A stretch of DNA of 64,000 nt from Mycteria americana (Eukaryota > Chordata > Aves > Ciconiiformes > Ciconiidae), in NCBI RefSeq assembly GCF_035582795.1, contig NC_134390.1, forward strand, positions 851,060-915,059, given 5' to 3'. The notes beneath the pieces are model-generated. The model searched no databases. It worked only from the letters and a program-made list of their open reading frames with translations, and was not told the origin of the DNA. Of this stretch, positions 9,840-35,900 are shown one piece after another (the first letter of the stretch is position 1; the number at the start of each line of letters is the position of its first letter). The position numbers were made by a program, and so were the translations under genes.

Positions 9840-10565
9840 CCTGACCTTGTCACCGCTGGCCTGTCCCCATCGCTGCCTGTCCGTCTGTCCCCATCACTGC
9901 CTGTCCGTCTGTCCCCCTCCCTGTCTGCCTGTCCCCATCGCTGCCTGTCCGTCTGTCCCCCTCCCTGTCCGTCTGTCCCCCTCCCTGTCTGCCTGTCCCC
10001 ATCGCTGCCTGTCCGTCTGTCCCCCTCCCTGTCCATCTGTCCCCCTCCCTGTCTGTCCCCATCGCTGCCTGTCCGTCTGTCCCCCTCCCTGTCCGTCTGT
10101 CCCCATCGCTGCCTGTCCGTCTGTCCCCCTCCCTGTCCGTCTGTCCCCCTGTCCCCCTGTCTGTCCCCATCACTGCCTGTCCGTCTGTCCCCCTCCCTGT
10201 CTGCCTGTCCCCATTGCTGCCTGTCCGTCTGTCCCCCTCCCTGTCCGTCTGTCCCCCTGTCCCCCTGTCTGTCCCCATCGCTGCCTGTCCGTCTGTCCCC
10301 CTGTCTGTCCCCATCGCTGCCTGTCTGTCTGTCCCCCTCCCTGTCTGCCTGTCCCCATCGCTGCCTGTCCGTCTGTCCCCCTCCCTGTCCGTCTGTCCCC
10401 CTCCCCGTCTGCCTGTCCCCATCGCTGCCTGTCCGTCTGTCCCCCTCCCTGTCCGTCTGTCCCCCTGTCTGTCCCCATTGCTGCCTGTCCGTCTGTCCCC
10501 CTCCCTGTCCGTCTGTCCCCCTCCCCGTCTGCCTGTCCCCATCGCTCCCTGTCCCCCCATCCCGT
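9840..10565. repeat. CTGTCCGTCTGTCCCCCTCC minisatellite
   Basis: About 20-bp submodules (CTGTCCGTCTGTCCCCCTCC, CTGCCTGTCCCCATCG) are arranged in varying order. The reverse complement, GGGGACAGACGGAC, recurs in the arrays around NPFF at 22.0-22.6 kb. Confidence 0.92.
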
Positions 10566-10749
10566 CCCCACTGCCCCCGTTCGTCGGTCACCTTCGATCC
10601 CTACCTGTCCCTCTCCCACCTGCTCACGTCCCCTCCCCGTCCCCGCTCTGTCCCTGTCCGTCTGTCCCCACCGCACCCTGCCCGTCCCCACTGTCCCCGT
10701 CCGTCCCCGTCACACCCTCTGCAACTGTCCCCATCTGCCCACCCCTTTT

Positions 10750-11858
10750 ACCCTGTCCCACCTGTCCGTCTGTCCCTGTCCCACCCCGTCTGTCTGTCCC
10801 TGTCCCACCCCGTCCCTGTCCCACCTGTCCGTCTGTCCCTGTCCCACCCTATCTGTCCCTGTCCCACCGTGTCCATCTGTCCCTGTCCCACCTGTCCATC
10901 TGTCCCTGTTGCACCCCGCCTGTCCCCATTGTCCCCATCCATTGACCCCTGTCCATCCCTGTCCCACCATGTCTGTCTGTCCCTGTCCCACCCCGTCTGT
11001 CTGTCCCTGTCCCACCCTGTCCCTGTCCCACCATGTCCGTCTGTCCCTGTCCCACCCTATCTGTCCCTGTCCCACCGTGTCCATCTGTCCCTGTCCCACC
11101 TGTCCATCTGTCCCTGTCGCACCCTGCCTGTCCCCATTGTCCCCATCCATTGACCCCTGTCCATCCCTGTCCCACCTGTCCGTCTGTCCCTGTCCCACCC
11201 CGTCTGTCTGTCCCTGTCCCACCGTGTCCGTCTGTCCCTGTCCCACCCTGCCTGTCCCCATTGTCCCCATCCATTGCCCCTGTCCCTGTCCCACCTGTCC
11301 GTCTGTTCCTGTCCCGCCCTGTCCATCTGTCCCTGTCCCACCCTGTCCCTGTCCCACCATGTCCGTCTGTCCCTGTCCCCCCCGCCTGTCCCCATTGTCC
11401 CCATCCATTGCCCCTGTCCCACCCTATCTGTCCCTGTCCCATCGTGTCCCGTGTCCGTCTGTCCCTGTCCCACCCTATCTGTCCCTGTCCCACCGTGTCC
11501 ATCTGTCCCTGTCCCACCTGTCCGTCCGTCCCTGTCGCACCCCGCCTGTCCCCACCCATTGACCCCTGTCCATCCCTGTCCCACCTGTCCGTCTGTCCCT
11601 GTCCCACCCCGTCTGTCTGTCCCTGTCCCACCCTGTCCCTGTCCCACCCCGTCCGTCTGTCCCTGTCCCACCGTGTCCGTCTGTCCCTGTCCCACCCCGT
11701 CTGTCTGTCCCTGTCCCACCCTGTCCCTGTCCCTGTCCCACCTGTCCGTCTGTCCCTGTCCCACCCCGTCTGTCTGTCCCTGTCCCACCGTGTCCGTCTG
11801 TCCCTGTCCCACCCCGTCCGTCTGTCCCCGCCCCATCCCGCCTGTCCCCATTGTCCCC
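10750..11858. repeat. CTGTCCGTCTGTCCCTGTCC minisatellite
   Basis: About 25-bp modules of CTGTCCGTCTGTCCCTGTCC followed by CACC, with a recurrent larger block containing GCCTGTCCCCATTGTCCCCA and CCATTGACCC. It is related to the preceding array by the shared CTGTCCGTCTGTCC word. It ends about 300 bp before the TARBP2 start codon. Confidence 0.92.
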
Positions 11859-11972
11859 ATCCATTCCCCCCCCCGCCCAGGGGGAGGAAACTGAGGCAGA
11901 CCCCCCCCAACCGCAGCCACGTGGCCCCGCCTCCCGCGTCCTCCACCTTCCCAGCATTCCCCGCGCGGGGGG

Positions 11973-11990
11973 TTGTGGGAAGCGTAGTCC
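11973..11990 (-). promoter_or_regulatory. ZNF143/Staf-like site, left arm
   Basis: Read on the minus strand, GGACTACGCTTCCCACAA keeps the ACTAC-NN-TTCCCA core of the ZNF143 SBS/THAP11 motif, with mismatches outside the core. It is the mirror copy of the site in the right arm. Confidence 0.5.
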
Positions 11991-12039
11991 GCCGAGGGGG
12001 GGGGAGCGGCAGCTCCGCTGCCGCTCCCCCCCCCTCGGC

Positions 12040-12057
12040 GGACTACGCTTCCCACAA
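12040..12057 (+). promoter_or_regulatory. ZNF143/Staf-like site, right arm
   Basis: GGACTACGCTTCCCACAA with the ACTAC-NN-TTCCCA core, pointing toward TARBP2. Promoter-proximal placement about 110 bp before the start codon is typical for ZNF143 sites. Binding is inference. Confidence 0.5.
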
Positions 12058-12112
12058 CCCCCCGCGGCGCCCGTTTCCCATCGCACCCCGCGGCGCGGCG
12101 GGGGGCGGCGCG

Positions 12113-12128
12113 GGCGCCCCCTGGCGGC
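12113..12128 (-). promoter_or_regulatory. CTCF-like site
   Basis: On the minus strand GCCGCCAGGGGGCGCC matches the CTCF core CC-N-CCAGGGGGCGC without a core mismatch. It lies 47 bp after the inverted repeat and 37 bp before the TARBP2 ATG. ZNF143 and CTCF are known to co-occur at promoters that anchor loops. Confidence 0.6.
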
Positions 12129-12164
12129 GCGGGCGGCGCGGCGGCGGGACGGAGCGCGGCGGGG

Positions 12165-12217
12165 ATGAGCGAGGAGGGGGCGGGCGGCGGGGCCAGGCGG
12201 AGCGGCGGCTTCCCCAG
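12165..12217 (+). CDS. TARBP2: TARBP2 exon 1
   Basis: Encodes [17 protein letters not shown] plus two bases. It matches the MSEE start of TRBP. The donor is GTACCG at 12218. The ATG is the first in a CpG-rich promoter context just downstream of the CTCF-like site. Confidence 0.9.
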
Positions 12218-15200
12218 GTACCGGACACCCCACCTCCCCCCTCCTCCTCGGGATATCCCCCCCCCTCCATCGCGACACCCCCCCCCCATCGCGATACCCC
12301 CCCCCTCAAACCGGGGTATCCCCCTCCTGAGGGAGAGGGGGAGGTTGAGGCCTACACCAGGCCCACGGGCCTGCCCCTCGGTCACCGGGCCTGTGTGACG
12401 GGGCTCTACACTGCAGAGAGGGGGTGGCCTGTCGCCGTGTCCCCAACGCTGCGGGGGGGGGGGGGTCCCAGATCTGTCCCCATGCCATGTGATGATGCCA
12501 CTTCTGTCCCCAAGTCCCCACGCCACGTGGTAGTGCCACCCCTACCCCCATATCCTAATGCTGCGTGGTGATGCCACCCTTGTCCCCACGTCCCCACGCT
12601 GCGTGACGCTGCCAGCCTCTCCCACCACCCCGCTTTCCCCTCGCCAGTCCCCTCTGACCCCTGCTCGGGCTGGTGACAACCCTGTCCCCAGGTCCCCATG
12701 CCATGTGGTAGTGCCACCCCTACCCCCATATCCTAACGTTGCGTGGCAATGCCACCCCTGTCCCATGTCCCCACGCTGCGTGTCAGTGCCACCCCTGTCC
12801 CCACATCCCCATGCCGTGTGGCAATGCCAACCCTGTCCCCATGCCACCCCTGTCCTCATGTCCCCGTGCCACGTGGTAGTGCCACTCCTGTCCCCGTATC
12901 CTAATGCTGCGTGGCAATGCCACCCCTGTCCCATGTCCCCACGCTGTGTGTCAGTGCCACCCCTGTCCCCACATCCCCATGCCGTGTGGCAATGCCAACC
13001 CTGTCCCCACGCTGAGTGGTGATGCCACCCCATGCCCCCGTGCCATATGGCAGTGCCACCTCTATCCTTGTGTCCCCATGCTACATGTCCCCATGCTACA
13101 TGGTGGGACCAGCCCTGTCCCCGTGTCCCCACGCTATTTGTTGGTGACAGCCTTGTCCCCATGTCCCCATGCTATATGGCAGTGCCACCCCTGTCCCCAC
13201 GCTGCCTGGGGGCTCCACATCTGTCCCCATCCTGCGTGGCGGTGCCACCCCTGTGTCCCCACGCAGCATGGGAGCTCCACTGATGTCCCCATGCTGTGTG
13301 GGGCCTCCAGCCCTGTCCCCATGTCCCCATGTTGCATGGCAGTGCCACTCCTCTGGTGGGTCCCCACGCTGCGTGGGGCTCCAGCCCTGTCCCCATGCCA
13401 TGTGGTGATGCCACTCCTGTCCCTCTGTCCCTGTGCTACATGGCAGTGCCACCCCTGTCCCCATGTCCCCATGCAGTGTGGCAGTGCTGTCCCTGTCCCC
13501 GTGTCCCCACACTGCTTGCTGGTGCCAACCCTGTCCCCATATCCTAATGCTGCGTGGTGATGCCACCCTTGTCCCCACGTCCCCGCGCTGCGTGACGCTG
13601 CCAGCCTCTCCCACCACCCCGCTTTCCCCTCGCCAGTCCCCTCTGACCCCTGCTCGGGCTGGTGACAACCCTGTCCCCAGGTCCCCATGCCATGTGGTAG
13701 TGCCACCCCTACCCCCATATCCTAACGTTGCGTGGCAATGCCACCCCTGTCCCCATGTCCCCATGCTACGTGTCAGTGCCACCCCTGTCCCCACATACCC
13801 ACACTATATGTCAGTGCCACCCCTGTCCCCGTGTCCTAATGCTATGTGGCGATGTCGCCCCTGTCCCCGTGTCCCCATACGGTGTGGCAATGCCACCCCT
13901 TTCCCCATGCCCGCACACTGCCTGGTGGTGCCACCTCGTCCCCCATGTCCCCATGCCATATGACAGTGCCACCCCTGTCCCCATGTCCCCACACCGTGTG
14001 GCAATGCCCACGTCCCCACGCGACACGTCAGTGCCACCCCTGTCCCCACATCCCCACGCCATGTGGCAATGCCAGCCCTGTCCCCACGCTGAGTGGTGAT
14101 GCCACCCCTTTCCCCATGCCCCCGTGCCATATGGCAGTGCCACGCTGTCCCCATGTCCCCGTGCTACATGTCAGTGCCACACTGTCCCCGTGTCCCCATG
14201 CTACGTGTCAGTGCCACACTGTCCCCATGTCCCCATGCTACATGTCAGTGCCACGCTGTCCCTGTGTCCCCATGCTACATGTCAGTGCCATACTGTCCCC
14301 ATGTCCCCATGCTACATCTCAGTGCCACGCTGTCCCTGTGTCCCCATGCTACATCTCAGTGCCACGCTGTCCCCGTGTCCCCATGCTACATGTCAGTGCC
14401 AGCCCACGCTACATCTCAGTGTCACGCTGTCCCCATGTCCCCATGCTACATCTCAGTGTCACGCTGTCCCCATGTCCCCATGCTACGTCTCAGTGCCACG
14501 CTGTCCCCATGTCCCCATGCTACGTGTCAGTGCCACGCTGTCCCCGTGTCCCCATGCTACATGTCAGTGCCAGCCCACGCTACATCTCAGTGCCATGCTG
14601 TCCCCATGCTACATCTCAGTGCCACGCTGTCCCCGTGTCCCCATGCTACATCTCAGTGCCACGCTGTCCCTGTGTCCCCATGCTACATGTCAGTGCCAGC
14701 CCACGCTACATCTCAGTGCCACGCTGTCCCCGTGTCCCCATGCTACGTCTCAGTGCCACGCTGTCCCCATGTCCCCATGCTACATGTCAGTGCCAGCCCA
14801 CACTACATCTCAGTGCCACGCTGTCCCCATGTCCCCATGCTACGTGTCAGTGCCACGCTGTCCCCGTGTCCCCATGCTACATGTCAGTGCCAGCCCACGC
14901 TACATCTCAGTGTCACGCTGTCCCCATGTCCCCATGCTACGTCTCAGTGCCACGCTGTCCCCATGTCCCCATGCTACGTGTCAGTGCCACGCTGTCCCCG
15001 TGTCCCCATGCTACATCTCAGTGCCACGCTGTCCCCACGTCCCCATGCTACGTGTCAGTGCCACGCTGTCCCTGTGTCCCCATGCTACATGTCAGTGCCA
15101 GCCCACGCTACATCTCAGTGCCACGCTGTCCCCATGCTACATGTCAGTGCCACGCTGTCCCTGTGTCCCCATGCTACATGTCAGTGCCAGCCCACACTAC

Positions 15201-18200
15201 ATGTCAGTGCCACGCTGTCCCCGTGTCCCCATGCTACATGTCAGTGCCAGCCCACGCTACATCTCAGTGACACGCTCTCCCCATGCTACATGTCAGTGCC
15301 ACGCTGTCCCTGTGTCCCCATGCTACGTGTCAGTGCCACGCTGTCCCCATGTCCCCATGCTACATCTCAGTGCCAGCCTCTCCCACCGCCCCACTCCCCC
15401 CAGTCCATACCCTCATCGGTCCCCTGTGACCTCTGCTTGGGCTGGTGACACCCCGTCCCCATGTCCCCCTGCTGTGTGGTGTCTCCACCCCTGTCCCCAT
15501 ATCCTAATGCTGTGTGGCAATGCCACCCCTGTCCCCACGTCCCCAGCGCCACATGGCCATGCCAGCCTCTCCCACCTCCCCGCTCCCCCCAATCCGTATC
15601 CCCATCCGTCCCCTCTGACCCCTCCTGGGGCTGGTGACAGCCCTGTCCCCAGCCTGGAGCAGATGCTGGCCGCCAACCCCGGGAAGACGCCCATCAGCCT
15701 GCTGCAGGAATATGGCACTCGCATAGGCAAGACCCCCGGCTACGACCTCCTGAAGGCCGAGGGACAAGCCCACCAGCCCAACTTCACCTTCCGTGTCACC
15801 GTTGGGGACATCAGCTGCACCGGTGGGTCCCCGACACCCTCCGCTTCCAGGCTGTCCCCCGCCTGCCCCTCACCCCCCCCCCCCAACGGTGCCAGGGGGG
15901 TGAGGGGTGGGGGACAGCCTGGAGAGGGTGACCTAGGGTGGATCTCGCTCGCCTGGGATGTGGGGGGGACAGTGAGGACACGGGGATTGTCCCCAGGATG
16001 GTGGGGATGTGCTGGGGAATCCCTAAAAGTGGGTTGTGGTGGGGGGATCCCCTGGGATCCCTAAAAAAAGTGGGTCCTGGTGAGGGATCGCCTCGGATCC
16101 TGATGCCTGGGACACTCAGGGATCCCTTGGGACCCCCAAAAGTGGGTTGTGGTGGGGGATCGCCTGGGATCCCGATGCTTGGGATGCTCAGGGATCCTGT
16201 GGGACCCCAAAAAAGTGGGTCCTTGGGGGGAGGATTGCCTGGGACTCCAATGTCTGGGGCACTCAGGGATCCCCTGGTACCCCAAAAAGTGGGTTGTGGT
16301 GGGGGATCATCTGGGACCCCGAAGCCTGTGCTGTGACACAGGGATCCTCCTGGGGACCCCAACATCTGGGATGTGCCATGGCGCTTCCCTGGGAACCCAA
16401 AAAGTGGCTCGTGGTGGGGGATCGCCCAGGACCCCAATGCCTGGGACACATGGAGATCCCCTGGGACCCCAAAAAAGTGGGTCCTGCACCCAGGACCCCA
16501 ATGCCTGGGACACCTGGGGAACCCCTGGCACCCCACCCCCGGGGTTATGGCAGAGGGATCCCCCGGGACCCCGACACCGGGGCTGTGGCAGCCCTAACCA
16601 CAGCCCATGGTCTGCGAGGGGTTTGGGGGGGCCCCAGGTGCCCCCCCACCCCGCTCAGCTGGTGTCTCCCCCAGGGCAGGGGCCCAGCAAGAAGGCGGCG
16701 AAGCACAAAGCGGCGGAGGTGGCCCTGAAGCTGCTCAAAGGGGGGGACATGCTGGAACCCACCGCCCCCGAGGAGCCCAGGTGAGGGGGGACGGGGTCCC
16801 CAGGGTGCTGGGGTTCAGGGTGGGGGTCAGGGTGCAGCACAGAATAGGGTTGGAGGGAGCTGGGGGGGATCTGGGGGGATGCTGGGTGCACAGGGGAAGG
16901 GCACCGAGAGTGTCCAGGAGGTGCTGGGGGAAGTTTGGGGTGCTCCGGGATGCTGGGTGGGGGGGGTAGAGGGGGTGCCCAGGTGGTCTGGGGGCACCCA
17001 GGGGGTCGGGAGTTCCCCAGGGGTGCTGGGCACCCAGGCCCAGTGGGTTTGGGGGATCTGTGGGGGGTTGAGGGCATCCAGGGGAGTTTGGGGGTACCCA
17101 GGGTGATTGGGGATGCTGGGGGGCTTGGGCATCCCAAGGGATTTGAGGGGGTTTGGGGAGCTTAGTTGGGTTTGGGGGTGCCCGGGGGGGGGGGGTTGAG
17201 GGTACCCAGGCAGGTCTGTGGGTGCCCAGGGTGGCTCTAGGGGTGCACGGGGGGGGGTTAGGGGTGTCTTAGGGGAGCTTGGAGAATTGGGGATGCCTGG
17301 GGGGGGTGGGAATGCCAGGGGGCCTGGGGGTCCCAAGGGAATTGGGGGTGCCTGGCAGGATTTGGGGCACCTGGGGGGTGCCGGGGAGGGAGGTTTGGGG
17401 GGGGCCGGCTCGGGCGTTAACGTCTCACCTTTTATCCCCAAGCTCTCCTTTCCCCCCAGAGCCCCCGGCTGAGCTCGGCCCCACGGCCGCCCCCCCAGCA
17501 CCCGCCGTACCCCCACCCTCGCCCAGGTAACGGGGTGGGGGGCACCGATTCCCCCCCAAACCCCCAGCTCCCGGCACCCCGTTACACCTCTCCGTCCCCC
17601 CAACCCAGGGGTACTGGTGTGGGGGTGCTCAGAGCTGCCCCCCCGCTGTGCCCCCCCTCACGTCGTGCCCGTCTGCCCCACGCAGGGGCACCCCCCTGGA
17701 GATGAAGACACCCGTGTCCCCCCCCCAGTCGGAGTGTAACCCCGTGGGGGCTCTGCAGGTGGGTGACACCACGGGCTGGGACAGATGGGGATGTGCCCCC
17801 CCCCCAGCTCGGTGGCTGTCCCCGTTTTGGGGGTGACAAGGCTGTTTGGGGGCCGGCCGTCCCTGTTGGGGGGGTGCATGCCCCTTTGGGGGTGACCTTA
17901 CCCGTTTTGGGGGTGGTGGTGACCTTTGGGGGCTGCCTCTCCCCAGCTGGGGAGGGGCTTTTGCCCCTTTTGGGGACAGTTATCCCTGTTTGGGGGACAG
18001 TTGTCCCCATTTCAGAGACAGTTATCCCCGTTTTGGGGGTGGTTATCCCCATTTTAGGGACAGAGGACCCATTTTGGGGACAGTTATCCCCATTTTGGGG
18101 GCAGTAGACCCATTTTGGGGACAGTTATCCCCATTTGCGGGATGGTTATCCCTGTTTTGGGGATGGTTATCCCCGTTTTGGGGACAGTTATCCCCATTTT

Positions 18201-32900: not shown

Positions 32901-35900
32901 GATGCCTCTGGCCCGAGAACACCAAACAAAGTTTCTGGGTTTGGGGAATTTAGTATGCGAGACAGGGACGGCAGCATTTCCCTCCAGCAGCCCCCACCGC
33001 TGGCTGGAAAGCCCCTCGCTACGTTAATCACCGAATCCTGGACAGACATTTGCCGGAGCCCTCCTGCTAATGCCAACTGCTTGAGTCAGACACTCCGGCG
33101 TGCTGTTGGCTCCAAAGGAAAACTAAACAGAGCGAGAAGCTGAGTGTATAACGGGCTCAGCCCACACCGGGCCGTGGGGAACACCAGAGCTCCTCCAAGC
33201 TCTCGGTACCTCCGTGAGCTTCTTCTGTCAACCAGGTCTGCTCCCCTGAAAACTTTGTGCAGCGTATTATTCCTCTATTGAAACGTTTGGAGAAACAGCT
33301 GAAACCCAGTCAATTGTATTTCACAATTGCCCGAGGAAACAGTTTCTATAATTATCTTGGGAAGAGAATAAAAATACCATGATCAGTGCTATTGAAAAAA
33401 ATCCCACCGCATGAGTCACTAGCCACCAGCGAAAGAAAAAAGCCCAGAACGGACACGAGTTCAGTCTTTGCAGACCCTTCACTCCTCGGCCAGTGCTGAG
33501 AGCATTAACAAGGGGGCTAATGGCAACGGAAGTGAAGTCTGTATTTTTCCATGCGTTGCACTTCTGCTAGGCACGCTGGGGGTGCTGCCAGAGAGCCGGG
33601 GAAACCCAACTCTTCACAAAAACCAGTACGGCTGCGGGCCGCAGCTGCAGAGCCTCCCTGCTCACCCCTGTGCCAGGTCCGCCATGCAGGGAAGGGAACT
33701 GGGACTGCTTCTGCTGACCCCGTGCCAGCAGAGAGCTCTCCCTCGCGTAGGGAGGTTTCCACTCCGCAAATACAGCTGCTTCCTGGGGCCTCTGCGCTCT
33801 GCTCCCGAGGCGGGCGTTGCTCCTTGAGCTACGGCCTTGATGGGCAGAGGCAGAGCCCTTTCGAGGGGGACGCGGAGAGAAAGAAGAGCACTGAAGCGCT
33901 CTTTTCCCCGTGGCCTGCTTGAGGCAGAGGATCAGGATGGAAAGCAGGGAGTGAAATCTAGGCACAGAGGCAGCAATCCTGCCCCAGAGAGCAGCATCCG
34001 AACGCACGTTGTCTCTGCAGCACTGGGAAGATGTTCCCTCCGGAGCGACGGTCCTAACGCTGGCGAAGGGCTGTGCTCAGCCTCCACGGTTACATACTCA
34101 CGCTCAGCTGGATGTTCTGGGTCGTGAGCTCCTCGGCTTTCTTCTCCAAGGAAGACACCCAGAGCTTGCGTTTCTGACGGCAGCGGGACGCGGCAGCCCG
34201 GTTCCGCTCCAGGAACCGCTGCCGACGCTCGTCCGGGTCTTCGTCAACCGTGCGTCTCCGTCGCCCGCCGGTGCTGGGGGTGGGCTGGGCAGGGGAAACC
34301 TGGAGATGGGGCACGTGAAAGAGAGATACTGAAAAGAAGCTCCGGTGCAGGCAGGCAGACGCACGCTGGCGTAACCAAGGTTTGGCAGAGGAGATGCCAG
34401 CTCTTGCGGCTGGGGCAAAAAGGGTTTTGCTTTTGCAGAGCAGCCAGAACTGTACAGGCTGGGGGGCTGGACCAAGGGCAGCCCGGGCTGCAATGGGGGA
34501 GCTGGGGACAAAGCCCCTTTCACAGGCGTTTCTGGCAGCCCTTCCTCAGCTGAGTCTGAAGTGCCCTGCAAACTTAAGGTGTGAATCCACACGAAGTCTC
34601 CGAGATCCTGAACCGGGTGAACGTGTGAATGTCAGGGGAATTAGTTAAATCCCAAACTCCTACAGTCAGCTAACGGCACGTAACCGACAGCAGAAGTTTC
34701 CTCCCCTCCATGACGAGGAGCTAATGTGGTAAATGACCACGGGCAAGGCAGAGAAAACAGCCTTCCTTTTAATTTCACTTAAGAGAGTTTAAAAAGCACT
34801 TCACACTGCAATGCCTTAGGAGATTCCCACATGGCCAGCGACCACGTATCAGCTGACGGAGGGTAACTTCCAGCTGCAGGGCCGGGAGCGCTCGATCCTG
34901 CTCTGACGCACGTAACCACGCACGGTCAAAGGGTCATCTCCATCTGGGTTCAGTAACTCCACTTGGGTTGGGTAACTCACTCGCGGAGCACAAATGACAG
35001 TTTTTGAATGGGTGATTGGCTTTAAAAATTAATCTGGGTTAAATTTTCCCCGAATGTCTTCAGCTAAACAAGCTCTCAGAGGCAACTGGTACAAAAAAAT
35101 TTCGTAACGCCGCACATTTCCCGGTTTTATTTTGGGAGAACAAAGGAAAAGTCAGCGAGGGCAAACGGTCCTGCAGACACGGCCTTGCCGGCACTTCTGC
35201 AAGGGCTCTGTAATTACACTGCCACAATCGGGGAGTGCAGTTACACTTCGGTACTCGCTGTCAGGCAGCATATGGATATTAAACTTTTGGAAGCCTATCT
35301 AACTGACGGAGCAGGTGGCGATCCTGATGGAAGGCTGGCATTTGGTTAGCTGGCAGGAGCCGGTGGAGTTGATTGCCTAAGAGGGGAGCGTTTAACCCCA
35401 GTAATTGAGCAGGGAGAAGAGAGTGAAATATTCTTTCGAAACTCCAGACCTTGTCAAGCAAATTAACATGTTGCTGAAGTTTTCTGCCTGGTGGTATTTG
35501 AGAGTATTACTACTGAAGCGGCACTGAAAAAACAAGGTTTTTAACCCGTTCTGCAAACCAGGCAGCTGCAAGATTTTCCTTCTCTTTCCCCGAGGCCTGG
35601 AAACCCGCAGCACCTCCAGCCCAGCCTCGCGGGCTAAGCAGCAGCAGACCTGTGGCTGAGCTGGGGAAGGGGCGTCAGGGTGCTGGACAAGTATCTGACT
35701 CTGCTCCGGACGTGCGGTCACCATCGTGCTGGCTGAGCCCACCACCAGGTTGCTGCCGTTCAGTGAGGAAGATGCCGTCAAGCTGGCCTTCAGCCTCTGT
35801 TAAAGGAGAAAAAAGGACGTCAGGGGACCCGTTCTCCATGCTGTTAAGGCTTTAGCCAGCTCCTCTATCACCCAAGGAGCCAGGCCGCGAGGGAACAGGC

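Follow-up and report, generated by a model that had tools for sequence, protein, structure and literature searches.

A perfect palindrome before the TARBP2 start codon of Mycteria americana: a possible divergent ZNF143/THAP11 site pair made symmetrical by copying

In Mycteria americana, a 103-bp palindrome (11964-12066) precedes the start codon of TARBP2 and carries one putative ZNF143/THAP11 site at the outer end of each arm. We lean towards reading it as promoter DNA and not as an element of the RNA: two divergent ZNF143/THAP11 (SBS2-type) sites, separated by 53 bp, would have been made symmetrical by hairpin-templated copying. The window, that is, the whole stretch of 64,000 nucleotides analysed, is C26:851060-915059, which puts the palindrome at C26:863023-863125, and the assembly searched comprises 1.348 Gb in 279 contigs. 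Positions below are those of the window unless a contig is named. The features at the locus are as follows.

11964..12013, plus strand: left arm of the perfect inverted repeat, 50 bp
12014..12016, no strand: spacer TCC, 3 bp
12017..12066, minus strand: right arm, exact reverse complement of the left arm, 50 bp
11964..11988, minus strand: putative ZNF143/THAP11 SBS2-type site in the left arm, with an exact M4 motif at 11976-11988 (minus) and 18/27 agreement with SBS2
12042..12066, plus strand: putative mirror SBS2-type site in the right arm, with an exact M4 motif at 12042-12054 (plus) and 18/27 agreement with SBS2
11948..11965, plus strand: putative third ZNF143-type site (TTCCCAGCATTCCCCGCG), sharing 2 bp with the left-arm site, to which it stands tail-to-tail
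12165..12217, plus strand: first coding exon of TARBP2, from ATG to splice donor, frame MSEEGAGGG..., 53 coding bases

Perfect arms of 49 bp around a 5-bp spacer, ending 98 bp short of the start codon of TARBP2, had been described in a sequence-only reading of this DNA. The repeat is real, and it extends inwards by one further C-G pair (12013/12017), which gives arms of 50 bp with no mismatches and a spacer of 3 bp. Pairing stops abruptly at 11963/12067, just 3 of the next 20 outward positions being paired. Each arm has a GC content of 78%, six CpG and one run of nine G. The distance to the gene holds as well: the sole plus-strand ATG within 11901-12200 is at 12165, 98 bp after the palindrome, and the 53 coding bases that it opens splice in frame onto a TARBP2 exon beginning at 15641 or 15653. 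The segment 15645-15800 matches TARBP2 chains in the PDB (best E 2.4e-31). Further exons match a TARBP2 query. On the minus strand upstream lies a frame with its start near 2712 that we presume to be MAP3K12, and a kinase piece of this gene matches MAP3K12 in the PDB (4.9e-34); it stands head-to-head with TARBP2, its start codon about 9 kb off. A bZIP-like frame at 34093-34545 (minus) resembles ATF7. A CR1-tail word, sought as a mark of bird DNA, does not occur in the window. When 11001-13000 is divided into 200-bp bins, CpG observed/expected (1.02) and GC (0.85) both peak at 12001-12200, and thus the palindrome lies at the edge of a CpG-rich core. In the examined region 10000-14000, tandem-repeat tracts flank this promoter core at 10008-11860 and 12458-14000, with units of about 20-24 bp upstream and 38 bp in intron 1.

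Such arms are far outside chance expectation. Block-shuffles of the first 26 kb (n=8) gave longest arms of 10-12 bp, and shuffles of the local kilobase (n=200) gave none longer than 13 bp. The runner-up among perfect inverted repeats in the window (spacers of at most 60) reaches arms of 20 bp, based on poly-G/poly-C. A scan of 282,475 bases, made up of the window, six loci of 3 kb (L003-L008) and twenty 10-kb pieces taken from the same 2.99-Mb contig, found no perfect arms above 20 bp with a spacer up to 60 besides the TARBP2 palindrome, and a local hotspot was rejected on this result; L001 and L002, being copies of the window, were omitted from it, and L018 shares 4,940 bases with the window. 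As single-stranded DNA the palindrome is predicted to fold completely (-79.8 kcal/mol, z -19.3). At assumed rates, the zero divergence between the arms puts their age at no more than 5-30 Myr (95% upper bound), an estimate that is invalid if copying recurs and drops below this range if the 9-G run slips.

Two familiar kinds of hairpin element were tried and rejected. A 301-bp query around the palindrome had at least 24 matches in the genome: two were the locus and its mirror image, and the other 22, all weaker, were confined to the part after the palindrome. Across the palindrome itself the TARBP2 locus alone matches among the matches listed, and the direct repeat at its flanks is just 1 bp, both of which speak against a mobile foldback element or MITE. 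A miRNA precursor was dismissed on the finding that all 11 Rfam matches in 10500-13500 fall under the gathering score, the best reaching 44.3 bits where 100 are required.

What the arms do contain is a known promoter motif. The M4 motif (SBS2), given as 'ACTACAATTCCC', is a ZNF143/THAP11 core-promoter site. Its published form ACTAYRNNNCCCR (PMC5006282, in excerpt) occurs exactly twice in the 64 kb, once per arm (0.63 expected), which supports the earlier proposal that the palindrome is DNA able to form a cruciform and carries a mirrored pair of ZNF143-like sites. Compared with the SBS2 consensus of 27 bases (PMC7154149), both arms score 18/27 and are among the window's top three, tied with one unrelated place. 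The pattern ACTAC-NN-TTCCCA-NN-A-NN-C-N-CCGCG is free of mismatches in both arms, against 0.04 expected with up to 3 mismatches, a flattering expectation given that the fixed letters were picked with the sequence in view. On both sides the final base of this pattern is the outermost base of the arm; the 25-bp site definition was also set after the data were seen. The third site lies just outside the left arm, and of the 21 positions in 11947-11967, 17 are complementary to 11962-11982. The word TTCCCAGMATKC, a ZNF143-type core, is exact at 11948-11959 (0.06 expected).

The sites also bear on where transcription would begin. M4 motifs peak at -89 relative to the start site (PMC5006282, in excerpt), from which the TARBP2 start would be expected at about 12131-12143, 3' of the palindrome; a start at about 12131 would leave the palindrome untranscribed. 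According to the excerpted review, which cites Fish 2019, ZNF143 is an upstream regulator of human TARBP2 and raises its expression in breast and lung cancers (PMC7154149). A CTCF-like word at 12113-12127 (minus) lies between the palindrome and the start codon, at chance level (3.15 expected with up to one mismatch). A 37-bp ZNF143-CTCF spacing rule has been published (PMC7782510, in excerpt) and has since been traced back to SINE/B2 repeats (PMC11687419, in excerpt); with the word at chance and the rule so traced, a CTCF partner site there is given no weight.

Is the divergent arrangement peculiar to TARBP2? Pairs of sites were sought across the genome with a relaxed pattern, TGGGANNNGTAGT ... 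ACTACNNNTCCCA, and the counts obtained are lower bounds. Relaxed divergent pairs numbered at least 1, at least 16 and at least 1 at gaps of 0-29, 30-60 and 61-91, with reversed-pattern controls of 0 each. The excess at 30-60 has a binomial P of 2e-6, or 4e-5 when three palindromes are left out. The strict pattern gave at least four divergent loci at gap 30-60; gap 0-30 yielded just one of these again, on C13 with its gap of 30, gap 60-90 yielded none among the matches listed, and the reversed-pattern controls were 0 in all three ranges. The gaps of the 13 non-palindromic divergent pairs bunch at 40-41 and 50-52, with 10.5-bp phasing (p 0.0003). Once the palindromes (gaps 38, 46 and 53) are added to make all 16, the phasing R falls from 0.78 to 0.59 (p 0.002); gaps 38 and 46 lie off the phasing peaks and the TARBP2 gap of 53 lies on one. 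These phasing and concentration statistics, like the boundary statistic given below, were selected post hoc with the data already seen. They suggest that divergent pairs at set spacing would be a working arrangement in putative promoters. Examples of divergent pairs are C2:118112702, C3:2630055, C6:7133211 and C14:17025499, the last of which adjoins a frame that we presume to be ZGPAT-like.

Convergent pairs at gap 30-60 number at least 16, with p 0.53 for equal gaps, 0.10 for gaps within 1 and 0.03 for phasing. Direct pairs at the same gap amount to at least 1 strict pair and at least 32 relaxed rows, against 13 in the reversed control; 21 of these 32 are repeats on contigs C98 and above, and nothing is concluded from direct pairs. 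Tandem arrays with an SBS2-type site every 55-61 bp are seen at C98:46893-47194 and C102:44427-44673, several units of the former containing AAGATGGC, which we take to be YY1-like. A segment of some 75 bp, carrying two SBS2-type sites in direct orientation, recurs almost unchanged on C118, C206, C220, C221, C231, C238, C241, C255, C264 and C268; on these ten small contigs it is a dispersed or unplaced repeat family.

Among the inverted pairs, 3 of the 16 divergent and 1 of the 16 convergent ones found are perfect or near-perfect palindromes. The three besides TARBP2 are as follows.

C5:58484928, divergent: palindrome on the VRK1 side, arms of 45 bp with 1 mismatch, spacer 6
C23:3003422-3003517 (L036:193-288), divergent: palindrome with arms of 48 bp, 0 mismatches, spacer 0
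C2:809370, convergent: palindrome with arms of 39 bp, 0 mismatches, spacer 15

Interior pairing in the divergent palindromes is 25/26 at TARBP2, 23/23 at C23:3003434 and 16/19 at C5:58484928. The distribution is bimodal, 12 of the 16 divergent pairs being at chance, with C8:28199748 as the sole weak intermediate (14/26, p 0.027). Among the convergent pairs C2:809370 is symmetrical, and the other 15 of 16 look asymmetrical by eye. The C5 palindrome lies 6.2 kb before the coding start of VRK1, a frame of which matches VRK1 in the PDB (6.6e-15), and is assigned by position as the putative VRK1 promoter. That of C23 is a 96-bp sequence that reads the same on both strands and has an SBS2-type site in each arm; the word GCGCATGCGC at its centre is presumably NRF1-like. 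The arms of all four have the site in common, and those of TARBP2 and C23 can be aligned further, over 34 columns, and the two may therefore be less than fully independent cases. The search was anchored on SBS2, ETS and NFY words only. Among the control inverted pairs (2 ETS and 9 NFY) none of 11 is symmetrical, the highest pairing being 9/22. Palindromes at 4 of 32 inverted SBS2 pairs (gap 30-60) versus 0 of 11 controls do not differ significantly (Fisher p 0.56), and therefore we claim recurrence and not specificity to ZNF143 sites.

How might a pair of sites become a palindrome? We propose that ZNF143/THAP11/HCF-1 would be recruited by the two outward-facing sites to drive TARBP2, with an upstream antisense start being possible. 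During replication or repair a strand could fold back at the inverted sites, and a polymerase could then copy one half off the other by template switch, converting a quasi-palindrome into a palindrome and leaving a symmetrical spacer. What is needed would be the sites, not the symmetry, which would mostly be a scar of copying, recent on the evolutionary scale. Template switching is known to yield perfect inverted repeats, with a median templated length in great apes of 12 and a maximum of 128 (PMC7954356, in excerpt), and to give novel perfect stems (PMC8794818, in excerpt). Such an event leaves a perfect reverse-complement copy nearby, as is seen at TARBP2. The arm boundaries bear on the order of events. 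Arm sequence beyond the 25-bp site amounts to 0, 4, 0 and 4 bp at TARBP2, the VRK1 side, C23 and C2, respectively (P 0.0025 under uniform placement). This coincidence of arm ends with site ends is expected if the inverted sites came first and their homology set the edges, and so the boundaries favour homogenisation of a pre-existing inverted pair.

The palindrome could instead have arisen in one step, a single SBS2 site and some 25 bp being reverse-copied alongside by a template switch and the resulting pair being retained for its workable spacing. Perfect arms, a tiny spacer and lengths inside the published range (PMC7954356, in excerpt) would suit such an inverted duplication, and by inspection a self-complementary CGCG at the outer arm end offers possible microhomology; but it predicts no coincidence of arm ends with site ends, which is seen at 4 of 4 loci (the P of 0.0025 being post hoc), and the chance-like interior of 12 of the 16 divergent pairs, together with the asymmetry by eye of 15 of the 16 convergent ones, also counts against it. 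We regard it as unlikely, though less so than the readings that follow. Those same asymmetrical pairs tell against selection on symmetrical DNA per se, whether as a cruciform or as an obligate symmetrical ZNF143/THAP11 platform, which would account for a favoured, phased divergent spacing and for four palindromes; this we hold to be very doubtful. Slightly more credible than selection, yet still quite improbable, is an in-vitro or assembly artefact, in which snap-back synthesis or an erroneous consensus at an inverted SBS2 pair produced reads with symmetrical spacers that then entered the assembly. Promoters rich in GC are difficult to sequence in birds, and snap-back in vitro predicts the same arm boundaries as copying in vivo. 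Library preparation does make such chimeras at inverted repeats (PMC10908179, in excerpt). Nevertheless, an error would have to beat true reads at four loci, while 12 other divergent pairs, mostly GC-rich as well, are asymmetrical; the VRK1-side locus retains a mismatch and C2 a 15-nt loop, and the end of pairing at 11963/12067 is not that of a kb-scale fold-back.

It had also been proposed that a 49-bp duplex in the 5'UTR, bound by TRBP, PKR, ADAR or Dicer, would feed back on TARBP2 itself if transcription starts upstream of it. An RNA of 11964-12170 would indeed form a 50-bp perfect stem in the predicted fold (-197.6 kcal/mol, z -12.9). However, the start is expected downstream of the palindrome, no Rfam match there reaches its gathering score (11/11 below), and a cap-proximal stem of such stability should block scanning. 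Moreover, the same architecture stands at three other loci, upstream of VRK1 and at C23 and C2, which makes a dsRNA-protein logic unnecessary. Autoregulation through the hairpin thus fares worst, as a highly improbable reading: RNA feedback is unlikely, and the DNA reading is to be preferred and broadens to a small class of recurrent structures.

If promoter-site copying is the true explanation, a mutational process, template switching at hairpins, would be tied to the grammar of housekeeping promoter sites, and a single genome would offer a natural series of asymmetrical, partial and perfect site pairs on which both could be dated. A spacing rule for divergent ZNF143/THAP11 pairs would be predicted that can be checked in any vertebrate genome, and the idea of RNA feedback on TARBP2 would give way to a testable one of promoter dosage. 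A bolder generalisation, which we offer tentatively and think rather less likely true than false, is that inverted ZNF143/THAP11 pairs, their helical spacing kept by selection, repeatedly seed copying from hairpins in the promoters of vertebrates and turn some of these into perfect palindromes, the symmetrical double site being a distinct promoter class capable of a cruciform under the supercoiling of divergent transcription.

The sites, their link to TARBP2 and template switching as such are already known and ordinary. A literature search on 'TARBP2 promoter' returned no papers, and no palindromic ZNF143 promoter appears among the titles of the matches listed. The string 'palindrom' is missing from PMC7154149, PMC11118474 and PMC11687419, and in PMC5006282 it concerns other matters. 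A human palindrome catalogue mentions ZNF143 once, among several proteins at a SNP (PMC7680136), and a ZNF143 motif is present in promoter primers for RNaseH2A (PMC9797495, in excerpt). Neither palindromic ZNF143 site pairs nor a spacing rule for divergent pairs appears among the matches listed or in these papers.

The TARBP2 palindrome resembles known ZNF143/THAP11 SBS2 sites in its exact M4, in the SBS2-like spacing of ACTAC, TTCCCA and CCGCG, in its position near the start codon and, according to the excerpted report of control by ZNF143, in the gene concerned, but it differs in having two mirror-image sites inside a palindrome with 50-bp arms. With bidirectional ZNF143 promoters (Anno 2011, via the excerpt of PMC7154149) it shares divergent sites and a head-to-head neighbour, MAP3K12, the start codon of which is, unlike there, about 9 kb away. 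To template-switch or quasi-palindrome conversion it is alike in its perfect reverse-complement arms, short spacer and probable hairpin intermediate; in contrast to the template-switch mutations described, the arms exceed the great-ape median of 12 nt (PMC7954356, in excerpt), and the structure recurs here at four loci that share one type of regulatory site, with the arms ending where the sites end.
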